DNA of 26,477 nucleotides, taken from the IMG/VR virus record IMGVR_UViG_3300022752_000334, positions 1 to 26,477 of that record. The stretch is one strand, 5' to 3'. How positions within the stretch are numbered: position 1 is the first letter of the stretch; the number at the start of each line of letters is the position of its first letter. The notes beneath the pieces were generated by a model. That model was not told the DNA's origin, ran no database searches, and saw only the letters and a list, made by a program, of their open reading frames with translations. The position numbers and the translations under genes are program-made. Origin of the DNA: a virus. Positions 965 to 18,687 of this stretch are shown here, one piece after another.

Positions 965-1615
965 ATGAAAATACTCAGAGAAGAAATCGAATCGGTCGAA
1001 TTTATCGTTGAACAAAAAAACGGTAAAAAATCACTTTATATAGAAGGTGTTTTTCTTCAGGGTGATATTCGAAATCGTAATGGACGTATGTATCCAATGG
1101 AGGTATTGCGTCGTGAAGTTTGTAGATATAATGAAAACCACATTCAATCTGGAAGAGCTCTGGGAGAACTTGGACATCCAGATGGTCCAGTTGTAAACTT
1201 AGATCGTGTTTCTCATAAAATTATTTCATTAAAAGAAAATGGATCTAATTTTGTAGGTAAAGCAAAAATTCTTTCCACTCCAATGGGAAAAATTGCAGAA
1301 TCATTAATTAATGAAGGTGTTAAACTTGGAGTTTCTTCTCGTGGAGTTGGATCGCTTCGCTTGACTCGTGAAGGAGTTAATGTTGTTGGGGAAGATTTTA
1401 TGCTTGCAACTGCTGCAGATATCGTAGCAGATCCTTCGGCTCCAGATGCTTTTGTTTCTGGAATTATGGAAGGAAAAGAATGGGTTTGGGATGGAGGAAT
1501 ACTCAGAGAAAAGTTTGCACAAAAAACTTACAAGACAATTAATACTCTTGTAGATCAAAAAAAACTTGAAGAAAATAAACTTCAACTTTTTAACGATTTT
1601 CTCACAAATCTTTAA
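965..1615 (+). CDS. 21: Prohead core protein protease gp21
   Basis: This is the T4-type prohead protease, which cleaves scaffold, capsid and internal proteins after the Glu of (L/I)xE sites during head maturation. It has 216 residues, close to the about 212 of T4 gp21. The N-terminal part has the family-like stretch GVFLQGDIRNRNGRMYP (residues 28-44). The fold uses a herpesvirus-assemblin-like His/Ser pair: the His is visible in LGHPDG (His71), and the Ser is Ser124 or Ser125 in GVSSRGVGS. Asp152 in AADIVADPSAP is a candidate third residue. The start ATG follows the preceding stop by one base without a clear Shine-Dalgarno, so translation may be coupled. Family assignment is firm; the exact catalytic Ser is inferred by spacing. 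Confidence 0.95.
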   Translation: MKILREEIESVEFIVEQKNGKKSLYIEGVFLQGDIRNRNGRMYPMEVLRREVCRYNENHIQSGRALGELGHPDGPVVNLDRVSHKIISLKENGSNFVGKAKILSTPMGKIAESLINEGVKLGVSSRGVGSLRLTREGVNVVGEDFMLATAADIVADPSAPDAFVSGIMEGKEWVWDGGILREKFAQKTYKTINTLVDQKKLEENKLQLFNDFLTNL

Positions 1616-1662: not shown

Positions 1663-2844
1663 ATGTCTCGTGGAGATTTACAAGAAATGGAAGTAGGCAC
1701 TAAGCAATCCAAAACTGCTGTTAACGCAAGTGCTAAAGCTGCTGATCCAATGCCTAAATTGACTACTGGGGGTGCATCAGCATCTTGGACAGATCTTGGT
1801 GGTCCAACACCCGAAAATTATAAACCAGATGATGATTCTGCAAAGTTAAATATGGATGGGGCAGGATTAAAGTCAGTAAAAAATGTTGTGAATAAAGGTG
1901 CCAAACCAGGAATGCCAATGGCAGCTGGGGTGAAAGAAGAGTATGAAGATGATGATCTCTTAGAGGCTAAAGAAGAGGAGGAAGAAGAAGAGGAGGAAGA
2001 AGAAGAGGAGGAAGAGGGTGGTAAAAGGCGTCGTAAAAAGATGGCCGAAGCACGTAAAATGAAAAAAAGTAAAAAAGAGGAAGAGGAAGAGGAAGAGGAA
2101 GAAGAAGAAATGGAAGAATCTTTCCAAATTGAAGAGGATGTCAATGCTCTTCTTTCTGGTGAAGAGCTCTCTGAAGAGTTTAAAGAAAAAGCAAAAACTG
2201 TCTTTGAAGTTGCTTTAAAAACAAAAGTTTTTGAAATTAGAGAATCTCTTGAAAATCAATATGCTCAAGCACTCGCTGAAGAAATTGAGTCAGTGAAAAT
2301 CGAGCTTCAAGAAAGAGTTGATGCATACCTTGAGTATGTTGCTGATGAATGGATCGAAGAAAACAAACTTGCTGTTGAGCAAGGATTAAAAACAGAAATG
2401 ACCGAATCATTCCTTTCAGGATTGAAAGGTCTTTTTGAAGAGCATTATGTAGAAATCCCTGAAGATAAATATGATGTCGTCTATAGTATGGTAGAAAAAC
2501 TTGATGACATGGAAACAAAACTCAACGAACAAATTGAAAAGAATATTTCTCTGAATAAGAGATTGGCAGAATCAGTTGCTGATGGGATTGTTAGTGAAAT
2601 TTCTGAGGGTTTAACACTTACTCAGAAAGAAAAATTAATTTCTCTTGCTGAAAATGTTGAGTTTGAGGGTGAAAACGATTTTCGTGAAAAGATTGAAACT
2701 CTAAAGGAATCATATTTTCCAAGAGTATCTGTCCAAAACAGAAATTCAGAAAATTTAAATGAAGGTGTAAATAGCGATTCTCCTGAATATACAGGATCAA
2801 TGGCTACTTACTTAAATGCTCTGGGTGCTGTAACTAAAAAATGA
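1663..2844 (+). CDS. 22: Prohead core scaffolding protein gp22
   Basis: This is the scaffold around which the prohead shell assembles; it is later degraded by gp21. The 393 residues are longer than the about 269 of T4 gp22. The extra length is in the N-terminal third: a Gly/Ala/Pro-rich segment, then a run of 15 Glu (around residues 104-118), a very basic patch (KRRRKK to KKSKK) and a second run of 11 Glu. The rest is acidic and strongly helical, as expected for a scaffold, with many LxE-type sites such as LSEE and LAEE that gp21 could cut. A Shine-Dalgarno GGAG (1652-1655) lies seven bases before the ATG. Assignment rests on the acidic helical composition and the position between gp21 and gp23. 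Confidence 0.9.
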   Translation: MSRGDLQEMEVGTKQSKTAVNASAKAADPMPKLTTGGASASWTDLGGPTPENYKPDDDSAKLNMDGAGLKSVKNVVNKGAKPGMPMAAGVKEEYEDDDLLEAKEEEEEEEEEEEEEEEGGKRRRKKMAEARKMKKSKKEEEEEEEEEEEMEESFQIEEDVNALLSGEELSEEFKEKAKTVFEVALKTKVFEIRESLENQYAQALAEEIESVKIELQERVDAYLEYVADEWIEENKLAVEQGLKTEMTESFLSGLKGLFEEHYVEIPEDKYDVVYSMVEKLDDMETKLNEQIEKNISLNKRLAESVADGIVSEISEGLTLTQKEKLISLAENVEFEGENDFREKIETLKESYFPRVSVQNRNSENLNEGVNSDSPEYTGSMATYLNALGAVTKK

Positions 2845-2890: not shown

Positions 2891-4306
2891 ATGTTTGAAA
2901 ACATTCAACAATTACAAGAGAAGTGGAAACCACTTTTAGATTATGAAGGTCTCGATTCAATCAGAGACTCCCATCGTAGAGCGGTAACTGCTGCCCTCTT
3001 AGAAAACCAAGAAAAATTCCTCAGAGAGGAAAGAGCATTCATGTATGAGTCCCCAGTTGGACTTTACGAATCTCCAACCAACTCAGCTAATGCTGCTGGG
3101 GCATCTGGCGGTTTCAGTGGATCTGCTTCGGCTGCTGGTCCTGTAGCCGGTTTCGATCCAGTTTTGATTTCTCTGATCAGACGTTCAATGCCAAACTTGG
3201 TCGCTTATGACCTCGCTGGTGTGCAACCAATGAATGGTCCTACTGGACTCATCTTCGCAATGCGCTCACGCTACACCAACCAGTCTGGTGCAGAAACCTT
3301 CTTCAATGAAGTTGATACTGCATTCTCTGGAGAAAACTCAACCTTCAGTGCAACTGCAGGTTTCTCTTCAGCAACATCTGGTTTTGGTACCACCGCACAA
3401 CAAGGCACAAATCCAGGTCTTCTCAACCCAGAAGCAAGCCAAGCACAAAATACCTACAGCGTAGGTCAGGGCATGGTAACTGGTGATGCAGAAAACCTTG
3501 GCGTAGCTGCTGGTCCACAGTTTAATGAGATGGCATTCTCAATCGAGAAAGTCACCGTAACTGCAAAGTCACGCGCTTTGAAAGCTGAGTATTCACTTGA
3601 GCTTGCACAAGACCTTAAGGCAATTCATGGTTTAAATGCAGAAGCAGAATTAGCAAACATTCTTTCAAGTGAAATTCTTGCTGAGATCAATCGTGAAGTT
3701 ATCAGAACCATCTATAAGGTTGCTGAATCAGGTGCTGCTGTTGGAACTGCTAACGCTGGCACATTTGACCTTGACGTTGATTCAAACGGTCGTTGGTCAG
3801 TTGAGAAGTTTAAGGGTCTTCTTTTCCAAATCGAGCGTGATGCTAACGCAATCGCACAAAGAACTCGTAGAGGAAAGGGTAACATCATCATGTGCTCTGC
3901 TGACGTTGCTTCAGCATTGACCATGGCTGGTGTCCTCGATTATACCCCTGCACTCAATGCAAACCTGAATGTTGATGATACTGGCAATACTTTTGCTGGC
4001 ACCATCAATGGTAAGTATAGAGTATACATTGATCCATATTCTGCAAACGTATCTTCAACTCACTACTACGTTGTAGGTTATAAGGGCACATCTCCTTATG
4101 ATGCAGGTATCTTCTACTGCCCATATATTCCTCTTCAAATGGTTCGTGCCGTTGGTGAGAATACCTTCCAGCCAAAAATCGGGTTTAAGACTCGTTATGG
4201 CATGGTTGCTAACCCATTCGCTGCTGGTACAACTCAGGGCATGGGCGGTCTGTATCCTAACGCAAACCGTTACTACAGACGTGTTGCTGTTACCAACCTA
4301 ATGTGA
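2891..4306 (+). CDS. 23: Major capsid protein gp23
   Basis: This is the T4-type major capsid protein, which forms the hexameric lattice of the head. It has 471 residues, somewhat shorter than T4 gp23 (521). The N-terminal propeptide is charged and helical (MFENIQQLQEKWKPLL, then RDSHRRAVTAALLENQEKF). It is followed by a Gly/Ser/Ala-rich linker. The best gp21 cleavage site in front of that linker is LYE at residues 58-60, matching the (L/I)xE rule. The body contains capsid-like stretches such as RRSMPNLVAYDLAGVQPMNG and FSIEKVTVTAKSRALKAEYS. Codon use here has more C-ending codons and higher GC than the neighbours, as expected for the most abundant phage protein. A terminator follows directly. 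Confidence 0.97.
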   Translation: MFENIQQLQEKWKPLLDYEGLDSIRDSHRRAVTAALLENQEKFLREERAFMYESPVGLYESPTNSANAAGASGGFSGSASAAGPVAGFDPVLISLIRRSMPNLVAYDLAGVQPMNGPTGLIFAMRSRYTNQSGAETFFNEVDTAFSGENSTFSATAGFSSATSGFGTTAQQGTNPGLLNPEASQAQNTYSVGQGMVTGDAENLGVAAGPQFNEMAFSIEKVTVTAKSRALKAEYSLELAQDLKAIHGLNAEAELANILSSEILAEINREVIRTIYKVAESGAAVGTANAGTFDLDVDSNGRWSVEKFKGLLFQIERDANAIAQRTRRGKGNIIMCSADVASALTMAGVLDYTPALNANLNVDDTGNTFAGTINGKYRVYIDPYSANVSSTHYYVVGYKGTSPYDAGIFYCPYIPLQMVRAVGENTFQPKIGFKTRYGMVANPFAAGTTQGMGGLYPNANRYYRRVAVTNLM

Positions 4307-10975: not shown

Positions 10976-11008
10976 AGCACGACTTGCCCAGTTTAAAAAG
11001 CGTCACAT

Positions 11009-11029
11009 GGGTCGCCCAAAAGGCGACCC
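11009..11029 (+). other. Perfect hairpin just before the VWA protein gene
   Basis: GGGTCGCC (11009-11016) and GGCGACCC (11022-11029) pair perfectly around a CAAAA loop. The stem is GC-rich in an AT-rich region. It is followed by TTCGTTGTATT rather than a T-tract, and the ATG at 11041 comes 11 bases later with no Shine-Dalgarno between. It may be a decayed terminator of the gp46 operon or an RNA structure that controls translation of the next gene. Confidence 0.7.
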
Positions 11030-11040
11030 TTCGTTGTATT

Positions 11041-13257
11041 ATGGATTCATACGATACGAAACAAATGCCTGTCCGTCACGAAATCAAGTCTCAACTTGCC
11101 AAGTTGCTTGCTACTGAGGATCTTATAGTAGAGCATAAGAAAGTTTCTACTGCTTGCTTCAATGTTCATACGCGGGTGCTGACTCTTCCTCTGTGGGAAA
11201 AGGCAAGTGATACTGTTTATGATTTGCTTGTTGGACATGAAGTTGGACACGCCCTTTTTACTCCAGATGAGGATTGGACTGTTAAGGTAAAAGTTCCTGC
11301 TCAGTTTGTAAATGTAGTTGAGGATGCTCGCATTGAAAAGTTGATGAAACGCAAGTATATGGGACTTGCAAAGACTTTCTTTAACGGATATAAAGAGCTG
11401 AATGAAGAAAATTTTTTTCAACTCGAAGATCAAGATATTTCCAAATTTAATCTTGCCGACCGTGCAAATCTTTATTTTAAGGTTGGTAATTTTATAAAGT
11501 TGGATTTTAATAGCAAAGAAAAAGAAATTGTTGATTCGATTTCTTCTGCAGAATCCTTTGCGGATGTCTTGATTGCTGCAGAAGAACTTTATAAGTATTG
11601 TAAGAAAGAAAAAAAACAGCAGCAAAAAGTTCCTGACTTTGATTCTCATGAGCAACAAGGTGATTCTCAGTCTCCTGCCAACGAAATTGTGGAGAGTAAT
11701 GACTCCTTTTCAGAAGAAGAAGATGAGAGTAATAATTCCCAGGAACAACCTGGAGAAACCGACTCTTATGGTGGGACTGCTCAAGGTGATGAAGTTCAAA
11801 ATATTTCTAATGATGAAGAAGAACCCGAAGTTCTCACTGCAGATTCCTTGGAGAATAAACTTCGTGACTTGATTAATCATGATGGATATGAAAACGTTTA
11901 TGTTGAGATTCCTCAAGTCAATCTTGATACCGTGATTGGTAAAAATGCAGATGTTCATAAAGATATAGATGCATCTTTTAATCACCAACAAAAATTATAT
12001 GAGGAAAATCTAAAAAATAATTATAAGCATCTTCCAATTGGTAATTTGTTTGAAAATGTGGATATTGGATTTAAAAAATTCAAATTGTCTGCTCAAAAAG
12101 AAGTCAACTATCTAGTAAAAGAATTTGAGTGTCGTAAGGCAGCAGATTCTTATGCTCGTGCTACCACTGCTCGCACAGGAGTTCTTGATACATCTCGTCT
12201 TCATTCTTACAAATACACGGAAGATTTGTTTAAGAAAGTTTCTGTAATTCCTGATGGTAAAAATCATGGATTGATTTTTATTCTTGACTGGAGTGGATCT
12301 ATGGCAGGTGTTATTCAAGACACCTGTAAACAACTTTTTAATCTTGTTTGGTTTTGTAAAAAAGTTGCAATTCCTTTTGAGGTTTATGCTTTTACAAATG
12401 AATGGCGTCGTGGTGAATATGACTACGAAACTCAAACTTATAGTCCAGCAGATCGTACTCCTCACTATGAAGCAAAAGAGGGATTGATTAAAATTGAGGA
12501 AACTTTTACTTTGATGAATCTTCTTACCAGTAAAGTTTCTAGTAAAGAGTTGGAACATCAAATGCTTAATATTTGGCGTTTGGCTTTTTGTTTTGGCAAT
12601 TCTTATCGTGTTCATTATACTTGTTCAAATCGTTTAGCTCTTTCTGGAACTCCTTTGAATGAAGCACTGATGACTCTTCATCAGATTCTTCCTAAGTTTC
12701 AACGAGAAAATAAACTTCAAAAAGTTCAATGTATTGTACTGACAGATGGCGAAGCAAATTATTCTCCTTATCACGTAGAAATTAAACGTGGATATAATTC
12801 AGACTCTTATATTGGATCTCGTGGTATCAATCCAGATAAAACTTTTCTTCGGGATCGTAAACTTGGAATTACCTATAAATTTGATTATGGGTATCAACAA
12901 TTTACTGAAGTTCTTCTTCGTAATTTGAAAGATAAGTTTCCTTCTGTAAACTTTATTGGTATTCGTATTCTTGAAGGACGTAATGTAAATCGGTTTATTA
13001 CTCTTTATCACAATCAGCGTGATAAGCAATATGAAGTGATTCAAAATGATTGGAAGAAACTGAAAAGTTTCACTATCACTAACTCTGGTTATGATGCTTA
13101 CTTTGGACTTTCTTCTTCTGTTCTTTCTCAGGATGCTGAGTTTGACGTTGCCGATGATGCCACCAAGTCTCAAATCAAATCTGCCTTTGTTAAATCCCTT
13201 AAAACTAAAAAACTGAATAAAAAAGTTTTGGGAGAGTTCATTTCTCTTGTTGTCTAA
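11041..13257 (+). CDS. CobT-like protein with HExxH metallopeptidase motif and VWA domain
   Basis: The ATG at 11041 gives 738 residues; the frame extends upstream only through a TTG inside the hairpin region. The N-terminal domain has the zinc-binding motif HEVGH (66-70) and, 24 residues on, EDARIE (94-99), which could supply the third ligand as in gluzincins. A linker rich in Glu, Gln, Ser and Asp (about 195-265) follows. The C-terminal part has a VWA domain with a complete metal-binding MIDAS: DWSGS (416-420), Thr537 in SGTPLNEAL and Asp569 in VLTDGE. CobT of cobaltochelatase has a similar acidic linker plus VWA layout. The CobS-type ATPase partner is encoded at 14052. Peptidase activity is inferred from motifs only; cobalt chelation itself seems unlikely without CobN. 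Confidence 0.85.
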   Translation: MDSYDTKQMPVRHEIKSQLAKLLATEDLIVEHKKVSTACFNVHTRVLTLPLWEKASDTVYDLLVGHEVGHALFTPDEDWTVKVKVPAQFVNVVEDARIEKLMKRKYMGLAKTFFNGYKELNEENFFQLEDQDISKFNLADRANLYFKVGNFIKLDFNSKEKEIVDSISSAESFADVLIAAEELYKYCKKEKKQQQKVPDFDSHEQQGDSQSPANEIVESNDSFSEEEDESNNSQEQPGETDSYGGTAQGDEVQNISNDEEEPEVLTADSLENKLRDLINHDGYENVYVEIPQVNLDTVIGKNADVHKDIDASFNHQQKLYEENLKNNYKHLPIGNLFENVDIGFKKFKLSAQKEVNYLVKEFECRKAADSYARATTARTGVLDTSRLHSYKYTEDLFKKVSVIPDGKNHGLIFILDWSGSMAGVIQDTCKQLFNLVWFCKKVAIPFEVYAFTNEWRRGEYDYETQTYSPADRTPHYEAKEGLIKIEETFTLMNLLTSKVSSKELEHQMLNIWRLAFCFGNSYRVHYTCSNRLALSGTPLNEALMTLHQILPKFQRENKLQKVQCIVLTDGEANYSPYHVEIKRGYNSDSYIGSRGINPDKTFLRDRKLGITYKFDYGYQQFTEVLLRNLKDKFPSVNFIGIRILEGRNVNRFITLYHNQRDKQYEVIQNDWKKLKSFTITNSGYDAYFGLSSSVLSQDAEFDVADDATKSQIKSAFVKSLKTKKLNKKVLGEFISLVV

Positions 13258-13260
13258 ATA
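13253..13260 (+). promoter_or_regulatory. Late promoter (TCTAAATA) overlapping the VWA gene stop
   Basis: TCTAAATA includes the TAA stop of the preceding gene and lies 20 bases before the ATG at 13281. It is identical to the octamer at 4358-4365 before the gp3-like gene. It is the only late promoter-like site in this part of the window and stands directly before the gene whose N-terminus looks like a capsid-targeting signal. Confidence 0.6.
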
Positions 13261-13280: not shown

Positions 13281-13793
13281 ATGAAAACCTTTCAAGAATT
13301 TGTGCAAGAATGTTATTCCATTCAGGAAACTTCTCTTACTCGCGTAATGAGCAAGTCTAAGAAAAGTGGTATGGCAATTATGTCTGCTCAAAGAGGAGAT
13401 AAATCTAAAGCAGAAAATAAGGCACGTTCAAGACAACTTGAAAAAGATGTAAGAGGTGCTGGGTTACCAGGACCTACTAAAGTCTCTGGAAGATATACTG
13501 AAAATCCAGGAACTTCACAAGAGAAAAAAGTAGGAGAGAAATCTCACGTTGTTTCTTCTGGTAAAATGGGCAAAAGAAAATTTAAAAAGACAATTGAAAA
13601 ACTTGGTAAAAAGTACGACCAAGATTCAGTACTTCTACAACGTAAACCAGGTGGAAGTTCCACACTTAAAGGAACTTCTAAAACATCTTGGCCTGGGCAG
13701 GGAAAGAATGTTAAAATAGGAAGTATGAAACCAGGTAGAACTGGTGAATTTGATACCAAAGTTAAAAACAAAACATTTACAGTCGAAACTTAA
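13281..13793 (+). CDS. Probable internal head protein with capsid-targeting sequence
   Basis: This encodes 170 residues. The N-terminus MKTFQEFVQECYSIQE is strikingly like the capsid-targeting sequence of T4 internal proteins, which I recall as beginning MKTYQEFI. It ends in IQE (14-16), a fit to the (L/I)xE rule for cleavage by the prohead protease gp21. The remaining 154 residues are very basic and rich in Lys, Gly, Ser and Arg, with little hydrophobic core, as expected of a DNA-associated head protein. A late promoter octamer lies 20 bases upstream. I infer that it is packed into the prohead, cut after Glu16 and retained or injected with the DNA. The final role could be anti-host or DNA-condensing. 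No enzymatic motif is seen. Confidence 0.75.
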   Translation: MKTFQEFVQECYSIQETSLTRVMSKSKKSGMAIMSAQRGDKSKAENKARSRQLEKDVRGAGLPGPTKVSGRYTENPGTSQEKKVGEKSHVVSSGKMGKRKFKKTIEKLGKKYDQDSVLLQRKPGGSSTLKGTSKTSWPGQGKNVKIGSMKPGRTGEFDTKVKNKTFTVET

Positions 13794-13794
13794 A

Positions 13795-13980
13795 ATGAAA
13801 TCTAAATTTCCATTTGATCATATAGTTAAATACGATACCAAAGAAGTTTGGGTAAAGTGTGATAGTGCTATCACCGCTATGGGAATTTCTGCTATGGTAG
13901 AAAAATACTATCCAGGATATAAAGGTCATATTGGTAGTAAAGAGTATCTTGAGACACTTCGAAACCAGTTGGCAAACTGA
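13795..13980 (+). CDS. 61-residue unknown protein
   Basis: The ATG at 13795 is the best start, one base after the preceding stop. The frame continues upstream inside the previous gene only as an overlapping shadow. The product begins MKSKFPFDHIVKYDTKEVWV and contains AITAMGISAMVEKYYPGYKG and a C-terminal helix KEYLETLRNQLAN. It has one Cys and no known motif. It could be a small adaptor or DNA-associated protein. The short spacing suggests co-expression with the internal head protein from the late promoter at 13253. I do not recognise the family. Confidence 0.65.
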   Translation: MKSKFPFDHIVKYDTKEVWVKCDSAITAMGISAMVEKYYPGYKGHIGSKEYLETLRNQLAN

Positions 13981-14012
13981 CCACGGGGGATCTTTTGGTT
14001 CTCTTTTTCAGT

Positions 14013-14018
14013 TATAAT
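14013..14018 (+). promoter_or_regulatory. Possible -10 element before cobS
   Basis: TATAAT stands 33 bases before the cobS ATG in a short gap between genes. No good -35 box lies at the right distance; the best is TCTTTT at 13991-13996 with a 16-base spacer. It may be a -10-dependent early or middle promoter that needs an activator. A chance match in AT-rich DNA is possible. Confidence 0.4.
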
Positions 14019-14051
14019 GATAAGGTTGAAACAAAGAAAAATCTTCTAATC

Positions 14052-15143
14052 ATGGCACTTTCTTCTGACTACATCCGCACTTCTCTTCAAGCACTTTATG
14101 GCAATAATGTTACTGGAGCAGACATTCGTGCATGGTGTGCTCTGAATGATTCTAATTACCAAACTGTATCTAAAAAACTAGAACAATTTAAGACTGGTCG
14201 CGGTAAATGGAATCTCGAAGTCACTCAACAAAAAGTTGAAGAAATCGAACGTAATTTCCAAGCGCCTGCTGTGATTCCTCCTGTAGAACAAACACTCATT
14301 CCCAAAAAAGATGATACCTTTGTCAAGTTTGGTAACTTTAACGATATTAAAAAAATTATTCAGTCCCGTCTTTTTTATCCTACGTTCATTACGGGTCTTT
14401 CGGGTAATGGTAAAACGTTTAGTGTGGAGCAAGCTTGTGCTCAATTGGGTCGTGAGTTGATCCGTGTAAATATTACAGTAGAAACTGATGAAGATGATCT
14501 TATCGGTGGTTTCCGTCTTGTTAACGGCGAAACTGCTTGGCACAATGGACCAGTCATTGAAGCCATCCAGAGAGGTGCTGTATTGCTTCTTGATGAGATC
14601 GACCTCGCAAGTAATAAAATTCTCTGTCTCCAACCTATCCTTGAGGGAAAGGGAGTTTTCCTTAAAAAAATTGGAAAGTTTGTCACCCCAACTCAGGGGT
14701 TTAACGTCATCGCAACCGCCAATACTAAAGGCAAGGGTTCAGACGATGGTAGGTTCATTGGAACTAACGTGCTCAACGAAGCCTTTCTAGAAAGATTTCC
14801 CGTGACCTTTGAGCAGTCCTATCCCGCCCCTACAACTGAGCAAAAGATCCTGGAAGGCATCGCTCTGGACCTTGGTGTGGAAGACCGTGACTTCTGCAAG
14901 CGCCTGGTTGATTGGGCAGACATCATCCGCAAGACCTTCTATGATGGTGGCATTGAGGAAATCATCAGCACCCGCCGTTTGGTTCATATCATCCGTGCTT
15001 ATAGCATCTTTCAAGATAAGGCAAAGGCAATTCAAGTTTGTGTAAATCGTTTTGATGACGAAACCAAGCAAGCATTTCTTGAACTGTATGACAAGGTTGA
15101 TGCCGATTTTCAACTTCCTGTTGACGAACAGTCTCCATTCTGA
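14052..15143 (+). CDS. cobS: CobS-type AAA+ ATPase
   Basis: The ATG at 14052 gives 363 residues and a start MALSSDYIRTSLQALYG; an upstream TTG in the same frame is less likely. cobS is a hallmark gene of T4-like cyanophages, named after the ATPase subunit of cobaltochelatase. Walker A is GLSGNGKT (115-122) and Walker B LLLDEID (178-184). The sensor-1 region is NVIATANTKGKG and an arginine-finger candidate follows in LERF. This is the MoxR/CobS clade, whose members usually drive a VWA-domain partner. Such a partner is encoded at 11041, separated by two small genes. GC content rises clearly in the last third. Whether it acts in cobalamin synthesis or in remodelling a phage target cannot be told from sequence. 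Confidence 0.92.
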   Translation: MALSSDYIRTSLQALYGNNVTGADIRAWCALNDSNYQTVSKKLEQFKTGRGKWNLEVTQQKVEEIERNFQAPAVIPPVEQTLIPKKDDTFVKFGNFNDIKKIIQSRLFYPTFITGLSGNGKTFSVEQACAQLGRELIRVNITVETDEDDLIGGFRLVNGETAWHNGPVIEAIQRGAVLLLDEIDLASNKILCLQPILEGKGVFLKKIGKFVTPTQGFNVIATANTKGKGSDDGRFIGTNVLNEAFLERFPVTFEQSYPAPTTEQKILEGIALDLGVEDRDFCKRLVDWADIIRKTFYDGGIEEIISTRRLVHIIRAYSIFQDKAKAIQVCVNRFDDETKQAFLELYDKVDADFQLPVDEQSPF

Positions 15144-16840: not shown

Positions 16841-17788
16841 ATGAGTCGTAATGAATTTTTGTGGGTTGAGAAGTATCGCCCCAAAACAATTGAAGACTGT
16901 ATTCTTCCCGAAAATATTAAGAAAACCTTTAAAGACTTCCTAAACAAAGGCGAAGTGCCAAACTTGCTTCTCGCAGGACCTGCTGGTTGTGGAAAGACTA
17001 CAGTGGCAAAAGCACTCTGCAATGAATTGGGAGTAGATGTTTATGTCATTAATGGATCCGACGAAGGTAGATTCCTTGATACTGTCAGAAATAATGCAAA
17101 AAACTTCGCTTCGACCGTATCGCTTTCGTCAACTGCTAAACACAAAGTCATCATCATTGATGAGGCAGATAACACAACCAACGACGTTCAACTCTTGTTA
17201 CGGGCATCTATTGAGGAATTTTCTAACAATTGCAGATTCATCTTTACCTGCAACTACAAAAACAAAATTATCGAACCCCTTCATTCTCGATGTGCCGTCG
17301 TTGACTTCACCATCAAAGGAAAGGAAAAAGCAAATCTTGCAGCAGGATTCTACGGTCGTCTTCAAGACATCCTTCAAAAAGAAAATATCAAGTTTGATAA
17401 CAAAGTTATTATCGAACTCATTAACAAACATTTCCCCGATTGGAGAAGAGTCCTCAATGAGTGCCAACGCTATTCGTCAGCAGGAGAAATCAACTCTGGC
17501 ATTCTTGCAACTTTTAGTGATGTAAAAGTAAATGATCTCCTTACGTATCTCAAAGATAAAAACTTTTCTGAAGTCCGTAAATGGGTGGTCAACAATTTGG
17601 ACAATGATTCTTCTGTTTTGTTGCGCCGCATTTATGATGCACTTTATGAGTCTCTTGTTCCTAATTCTATTCCTGCTGCTGTTTTAGTCATTGCTAAGTA
17701 TCAGTATCAAATTGCTTTTGTTGCCGATCAGGAGATAAATCTTCTTGCTGCTCTTACTGAAATTATGTGTGAGTGTGAATTCAAATGA
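16841..17788 (+). CDS. 44: Clamp loader large subunit gp44
   Basis: gp44 is the AAA+ subunit of the gp44-gp62 clamp loader. The 315 residues match T4 (319). The RFC-type opening FLWVEKYRPKTIEDCILP is followed by Walker A GPAGCGKT (46-53), Walker B with DEAD (107-110), sensor 1 FTCN (135-138) and the arginine-finger SRC (149-151). The C-terminal collar helices are present. All catalytic parts look intact. Its 3' end overlaps the Dam gene by four bases (ATGA). In T4 the next gene is 62; here a methylase intervenes. Confidence 0.96.
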   Translation: MSRNEFLWVEKYRPKTIEDCILPENIKKTFKDFLNKGEVPNLLLAGPAGCGKTTVAKALCNELGVDVYVINGSDEGRFLDTVRNNAKNFASTVSLSSTAKHKVIIIDEADNTTNDVQLLLRASIEEFSNNCRFIFTCNYKNKIIEPLHSRCAVVDFTIKGKEKANLAAGFYGRLQDILQKENIKFDNKVIIELINKHFPDWRRVLNECQRYSSAGEINSGILATFSDVKVNDLLTYLKDKNFSEVRKWVVNNLDNDSSVLLRRIYDALYESLVPNSIPAAVLVIAKYQYQIAFVADQEINLLAALTEIMCECEFK

Positions 17789-18687
17789 AGTCTCTTAAAA
17801 CTCCTTTGAGGTACCCTGGAGGTAAATCCCGTGCTTGTGAAAAGATGAGTATTTATTTTCCAGACCTCCGTAATTATACTGAATTTCGAGAACCTTTTCT
17901 TGGTGGTGGCAGCGTTGCAATTTATATCACTAAGAAATATCCAAACATTAAAGTGTGGGTAAATGATCTTTATGAACCTCTTGTAAACTTCTGGCAACAA
18001 CTCCAGATGTTTGGTGCTGATCTTTCCAATATACTTGCATCTTTTAAAAGTATGTGCAATACTCAAGATGAAGCAAGAAAACTTTTCCTAAATTCTAAGG
18101 AAAGTATCAATGATAAGACTATTCCAAATTTCAATCGTGCTGTGGCTTTCTATATTGTCAATAAATGTAGTTTCAGCGGTCTTACGGAGAGTTCTTCATT
18201 TTCTGCACAAGCATCAAACTCAAACTTCTCTATGCGGGGAATTGAAAAACTGCCTGAGTATTCAAAAATAATTGAACATTGGAAAATCACTAACTATTCC
18301 TATGATTATTTGATGGATGGAAACATGGGTGCTTTTATGTATCTCGATCCTCCTTATGACATTAAGGACAATCTCTATGGGAACAAAGGATCAATGCACA
18401 AAGGATTCGATCACGATAAGTTTGCTGCTGATTGTGATTCTTGTTTTATGGATCAGTTAATCAGTTATAATTCTGATCAACTGGTTAAAGACCGTTTTAA
18501 GAACTGGAACGCTGCTGAGTTTGATTTAACTTATACTATGAGATCAGTTGGAGAATATATGCGTGAGCAAAAGGAAAGAAAAGAACTTCTGCTTTTTAAT
18601 TATAATAAAAATCCAAAAATTCAATTTAATTTTGATGGATGCTACAACTATGATAGATTAAAAAAAGCGGGGTTGGTCGATGGCTGA
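17785..18687 (+). CDS. dam: DNA adenine methyltransferase (Dam family)
   Basis: This encodes a 300-residue D12-class N6-adenine methyltransferase. It shows the Dam start LRYPGGKS (8-15), the S-adenosylmethionine loop REPFLGGGSVA (35-45), VNDLY (58-62) and the catalytic DPPY (187-190). The region between holds FNRAVAFYIVNKCSFSGL, typical of the target-recognition part. The length is normal and I see no disruption. The target may be GATC, as for T4 Dam, but that needs an assay. GATC is frequent in this window. The gene is fitted between gp44 and gp62 with overlaps of four and eight bases. Likely roles are protection from host restriction or marking of replicated DNA. Confidence 0.93.
   Translation: MKSLKTPLRYPGGKSRACEKMSIYFPDLRNYTEFREPFLGGGSVAIYITKKYPNIKVWVNDLYEPLVNFWQQLQMFGADLSNILASFKSMCNTQDEARKLFLNSKESINDKTIPNFNRAVAFYIVNKCSFSGLTESSSFSAQASNSNFSMRGIEKLPEYSKIIEHWKITNYSYDYLMDGNMGAFMYLDPPYDIKDNLYGNKGSMHKGFDHDKFAADCDSCFMDQLISYNSDQLVKDRFKNWNAAEFDLTYTMRSVGEYMREQKERKELLLFNYNKNPKIQFNFDGCYNYDRLKKAGLVDG

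Follow-up and report, generated by a model that had tools for sequence, protein, structure and literature searches.

A cyanophage gene that joins a probable T4-type capsid-targeting leader to a predicted SAM-lyase domain

The DNA analysed here (the window), 26,477 bases long, is a virus record of the T4-like cyanophage type. Its plus strand carries a real open reading frame at 13281-13793, which starts with ATG and encodes a 170-residue protein with the N-terminus MKTFQEFVQECYSIQE. The gene sits between a VWA-type gene (10984-13257, a peptidase by its PHROG label) and a gene for a CobS-like ATPase (13995-15143), and much the same VWA / CobS-like placement of a SAMase gene is found in the Prochlorococcus phage P-TIM68. 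Directly 3′ of the gene, at 13795-13980, lies a small uncharacterised ORF (ATG start, about 61 residues) that has no match in Pfam.

Table 1. Positions in the window of the gene's features and of the head genes presumed to act on its product.
Feature	Position	Strand	Basis or remark
Late-promoter octamer TCTAAATA	13253..13260	+	20 bp before ATG; overlaps the stop codon of the VWA gene
Capsid-targeting-like leader, residues 1-10 (MKTFQEFVQE)	13281..13310	+	Comparison with T4 ipI/ipII/ipIII
Spacer, residues 11-16, with second candidate gp21 site IQE/T	13311..13328	+	Junction motif in relatives
Predicted mature SAM-lyase domain, residues 17-170	13329..13790	+	PF23780; profile match to 7ock; Foldseek
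Active-site G70-x-Y72 (Svi3-3 G56, Y58)	13488..13496	+	Invariant in alignment with T3 SAMase
Catalytic E86 (Svi3-3 E69, T3 E68)	13536..13538	+	Invariant
Q114-D115 (Svi3-3 Q104-E105)	13620..13625	+	Q114 invariant
Prohead core protease gp21 (Peptidase_S77), presumed processing enzyme	965..1615	+	Pfam 3e-34, PHROG 207
gp22 scaffold/core protein, presumed docking partner of the leader	1663..2844	+	Pfam T4_CASP 1.9e-78
gp23 major capsid protein, LYE-60/S at the T4-type cleavage position	2891..4306	+	Pfam Gp23 2.7e-150

Judged by sequence and profile comparison, the body of the protein is a SAM-lyase domain with a complete set of active-site residues. The Pfam family S-AdoMet_lyase (PF23780) matches residues 33-156 at 9.8e-15, with a score of 55.1 bits against a curated cut-off of 28. 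A family profile built without T3 has the T3 SAM lyase 7ock as its best PDB match (E 6.6e-4). This match needed the family profile rather than a single sequence, plain phmmer with the one protein giving no genuine match in the PDB. The AlphaFold model is of moderate confidence (pLDDT 63.8, with best core blocks of 76-89) and fits the GlnB-like alpha-beta fold of 8bb1, 7ock and 6zm9. These three phage SAM lyases were the only Foldseek hits with E < 0.001 (4.7e-5 to 6.6e-4, prob 1.00). PADLOC returned no match.

At least 534 relatives are present among viral contigs. Two diversity scans led to few loci. In alignment A2, which includes T3 SAMase as given in the T3 record, invariance is limited to M1, A36, R38, N46, G70, Y72, E86, Q114 and L129. 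The active-site set conserved in the SAM lyase family is G56, Y58, E69 and Q104 in Svi3-3, where mutants of the catalytic E69 lose activity (PMC7877911). The corresponding G70, Y72, E86 and Q114 are kept in all relatives, including some that are about 30% identical, and D115 is invariant in alignment A1 and nearly so in A2. Mutants of T3 SAMase at E68 reportedly lose complementation. The activity predicted for the 13281-13793 product is conversion of SAM to methylthioadenosine and homoserine lactone.

Two other identities were considered and rejected. The fully conserved active site speaks against a generic DNA-binding protein, and a SAM-dependent methyltransferase, the label of PHROG 2226, was set aside because that label belongs to the T3 SAM lyase family. 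The T3 gp0.3 protein itself (L190:901-1359) is called a SAM-dependent methyltransferase in PHROGs and RefSeq, yet it is a SAM lyase, and the label misleads phage annotation. The T4-GC 110 proteins of P-SSM2 (P-SSM2_114, L085:4001-4510) and S-SSM5 (S-SSM5_107, L086:3803-4510), annotated as hypothetical, also match the SAM-lyase family, the latter at the Pfam cut-off.

The N-terminus was likened in an earlier note on this DNA to the capsid-targeting sequence of T4 internal proteins, and the comparison bears this out. In the T4 record ipII and ipIII begin MKTYQEFIAE/A and ipI begins MKTFKEFTSTTTPVSTITE/A (MKTFKEF...ITE), where the slash marks the cut or junction. T4 propeptides are 10-19 residues long and follow an L/I-x-E cleavage rule; residues 4 and 7 carry targeting, residues 8 and 10 carry processing, and Asp at position 10 blocks processing and leaves targeting intact (PMC9026906). 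The window leader has F4, F7, V8 and E10, and its form is kept in homologues. The same note placed the cut at IQE. That site, IQE-16, is indeed the better match to L/I-x-E, but it is not the sole candidate, since VQE-10 occupies the position used in T4 ipIII. At the T4-equivalent site the P3 residue does not obey the strict L/I rule, being V in the window and, in many relatives, M.

Homologues lacking both the leader and an IxE site had been named as evidence that would speak against head targeting, and the claim survived this comparison. In 124 of 125 distinct relatives [ILMV]xE stands directly before the enzyme start [ST]S[LI]xR, and among the 114 relatives of the MK type residue 7 is F without exception and residue 4 is F or Y in all but one. 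Leader length in the 125 ranges from 9 to 227 residues. It is exactly 10 in 54 of them (for example MKTYKEFMQE/SSLSR), and 60 of the 61 leaders longer than 10 have I or L as the P3 residue of the junction. Asp stands at position 10 in ten leaders, each of which carries an additional IQE at the junction. In five relatives (L022, L034, L053, L065 and L159) 50-210 mostly charged residues are inserted behind the leader, which is still N-terminal and still followed by xE at the junction. This arrangement is hard to reconcile with the leader as a mere part of the fold. The leader also lies outside the part of the fold that is modelled with confidence, since residues 1-20 have pLDDT < 50. Exceptions are L017 and S-SSM5, in which the leader-like stretch is internal (in S-SSM5 behind a 64-residue extension), and the T4-GC 110 proteins of P-SSM2 and S-SSM5, whose junction is LCE/G. 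Several of the leader-enzyme inserts (in L034, L053, L065, L022 and L028) share a recurring module, PGxGPxxRAREDR ... LKPGETYxxFAKR.

No other annotated ORF of the window has an N-terminus like MKTFQEF, and a position-specific scoring matrix (PSSM) of the leader passes 0.3% of internal 9-mers in one cyanophage proteome at a low cut-off. A leader arising by chance was rejected, as the leader is accompanied by an S77 protease, a junction site and a late promoter. The late promoter octamer and the strongly basic mature part that the earlier note had described were both confirmed (Table 1; pI 10.5, GRAVY -1.1, K+R 37 versus D+E 13). Moreover, TAAATA occurs no more than 60 nt upstream of the start codon, at -21 to -40, in 90 of 109 distinct relatives (83%), against a background of 3.8% of random windows. 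The presence of this core upstream of most relatives indicates late expression.

The gene at 965, taken in the earlier note for a prohead protease, does encode a Peptidase_S77 of the T4 gp21 type. An enzyme of this family is encoded by all eight sampled phages with a leader-type SAMase, including phages of Alishewanella, Microcystis and Prevotella (Lak); none was found in T3, whose SAMase has no leader. In T7-like phages the T3-type SAMase is mostly matched from the query's first residue. Residues 17-170 of the window protein contain no L/I-x-E, and the mature domains of 18 representatives contain 4 where shuffles predict 13.6, although these sequences are related and the comparison yields no clean p-value. 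By the same measure the non-head proteins of the window have 91 (82.7 expected) and the gp22 scaffold has 16 (8.9 expected). The T4-type cleavage position of gp23 reads LxE/S or LxE/A in the window, S-CREM2 and S-SCSM1, which makes Ser after the cut plausible for this phage.

The proposal of an ejected or DNA-bound head protein therefore stands in part: head targeting and gp21 processing are supported comparatively, whereas the cargo appears to be a SAM-lyase domain and not a generic basic DNA-bound protein. From the leader, enzyme family, intact active site, conserved junction, late-promoter motif and S77 protease co-occurrence, all of them computed, we infer the targeting, cleavage, ejection, enzyme activity and biological target of the 13281-13793 product. 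It is probably a SAM lyase, expressed late, whose T4-style leader directs it into the head and is cut off by gp21, and which depletes SAM after early ejection.

The protein resembles T4 IPI, IPII and IPIII in having an MK-T-[FY]-x-E-F leader of 10-19 residues ending in xE, a genome-encoded head protease of the same family, a small, very basic body and a late-type promoter. It differs in carrying a SAM-lyase-family enzyme rather than a protein inhibitor as its cargo, in having V as P3 at the first site where T4 has I, and in that its packaging is predicted from sequence. With the phage SAM lyases T3 gp0.3, Svi3-3 and Orf1 (PF23780) it has in common the fold and the active-site Gly, Tyr, Glu and Gln. 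T3 SAMase, however, starts directly with the domain and is the product of an early gene in a phage without an S77 prohead protease.

An unlikely but still appreciable alternative is that the SAM lyase works, like that of T3, solely within the infected cell where it is made, and that MKTFQEF is the N-terminal helix of this SAMase branch, resembling T4 by chance. SAMases of T7-like phages do act without packaging, and the N-terminus is homologous across the branch, so its conservation alone is no proof of targeting. Yet a helix belonging to the enzyme would hardly lie outside the confidently modelled domain, keep its terminal place across the long insertions described above, or recur in the same form on unrelated virion enzymes. 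The late-looking expression of the window gene likewise contrasts with the early T3 SAMase gene, and a homologue from S-CREM2 has been found in virions.

That homologue, S-CREM2 gp6, is 51% identical to the window protein over the N-terminal domain, has the leader MKDFDSFLEE, the junction LEE/SSLSR and TATAAATA upstream, and differs in having about 240 extra C-terminal residues. The S-CREM2 study lists it as a ‘SAM hydrolase’ detected in virions by 19 unique peptides and proposes that it shields entering DNA from restriction; in its accessible passages we found no mention of a targeting signal or processing site (PMC10665884). With this published mass spectrometry added to the comparative evidence, the head-targeted, gp21-processed part of the reading is well supported.

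The S-CREM2 authors themselves were unable to rule out that abundant non-structural proteins had been carried over (PMC10665884). Contamination by abundant late proteins could explain SAMase-type proteins in virions, with the xE junction belonging to the enzyme fold, an explanation we consider improbable. A PSSM trained on relatives of the window protein and T4 leaders, hence on sequences from elsewhere, was scored over all 219 S-CREM2 ORFs. Its top five (gp154, a cytidylyltransferase; gp136; gp14, a kinase; gp6; and gp13) are all virion proteins. The five ORFs besides gp6 that have the leader motif are likewise all virion proteins (Fisher 6e-4, for a motif picked after the list had been seen), and the motif is found in 0 of the 167 ORFs absent from virions. 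Similar leaders are carried by the kinase, the cytidylyltransferase, gp13, gp15 and gp136 of these virions. When all S-CREM2 proteins were compared by rank on the same data, significance was not reached (p 0.62), since the majority of structural proteins lack a leader; only the top ranks are informative. In S-SCSM1, where the enrichment test was set beforehand, the outcome was neutral: three genes scored PSSM > 0 and one of the three, an NMNAT that starts MKSFLQFLKEA, is in virions, which is not significant.

Least credible, on a par with contamination, is packaging of a protein that condenses DNA or helps to assemble the head and whose SAMase fold is degenerate or inactive, for although the mature part is very basic and T4 IPIII seemingly acts in head assembly (PMC9026906), a structural role would not need G70, Y72, E86 and Q114, which are invariant even at about 30% identity.

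A packaged and ejected SAM lyase would work as follows. Late in infection, the MKTFQEF leader would let the freshly synthesised enzyme dock in the prohead core of gp22, and gp21 would cut after VQE-10 and/or IQE-16 to leave the mature enzyme free inside the head. There it would stay until it leaves with the DNA, and on ejection it would turn host SAM into methylthioadenosine and homoserine lactone before phage genes are transcribed. The loss of SAM may starve SAM-dependent restriction or other methyl-dependent defences. SAM-AMP signalling and SAM synthetase itself are further possible targets. T4 IPI is an ejected anti-restriction protein (PMC3012670), while T3 SAMase acts on SAM synthetase and its own anti-restriction role is disputed (PMC8406200). 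A T4 head holds about 360 copies of each IP (PMC9026906) and Svi3-3 processes 9.5 SAM per second at 1 mM (PMC7877911). If 0.2 mM SAM and a cell of 0.5-1 fL are assumed, we estimate that a T4-like dose working at saturation could clear the SAM pool in about one minute, and would take longer when unsaturated.

The window also encodes a D12-type, SAM-dependent DNA adenine methylase (Dam; 17785-18687), 4 kb from the SAM lyase. With the lyase packaged, SAM would be destroyed at entry and needed by this methylase only later, and such timing, if real, suggests how a phage with a SAM-dependent Dam methylase affords a SAM destroyer. In S-CREM2 and S-H34 (L082, L083) an adenine methylase gene lies one or two genes from the SAMase gene, again placing a SAM consumer beside a SAM destroyer.

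CTS internal proteins, phage SAM lyases and one virion-associated SAMase are already known separately. A search of the literature that was light on subscription journals and preprints turned up no paper in which leader and SAM lyase are combined in one family whose processing junction is conserved. The leader offers a sequence-based reason for the packaging of a virion SAM hydrolase, where the S-CREM2 study leaves packaging versus contamination undecided. If the reading is correct, virion-borne, pre-emptive SAM depletion would be a widespread counter-defence in aquatic phages, and the leader would be a signature for other injected enzymes in unannotated genomes.

A broader proposal, for which we see an even chance, is that in T4-like cyanophages and in the S77-protease phages of Alishewanella, Microcystis and Prevotella (Lak) a common cargo leader, MKxFxxF[ILM]xE, brings entire enzymes of metabolism and defence into the head (SAM lyase, kinase, NMNAT/cytidylyltransferase and possibly a Cas9-like nuclease). 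This would turn the virion into an injector of enzymes, rewiring the host before phage transcription, with SAM removal as one part of it. In S-CRM01 (L191) matching leaders occur on a kinase and a cytidyltransferase.

Unrelated non-structural virion proteins share an MKxFxxF[LI]xE-like N-terminus in S-CREM2 (gp12-gp15, L090; gp136 and gp154, L092), and in the Cas9-like nuclease gp12 of that phage RFASFMAEA lies about 17 residues from the N-terminus. The best PSSM scorer of S-SCSM1, gp30, is not flagged as a virion protein; this 106-residue product (L195:44215-44535) has a very strong leader, MKTFKQFMSES, is encoded between virion-protein genes and is a candidate small internal head protein.
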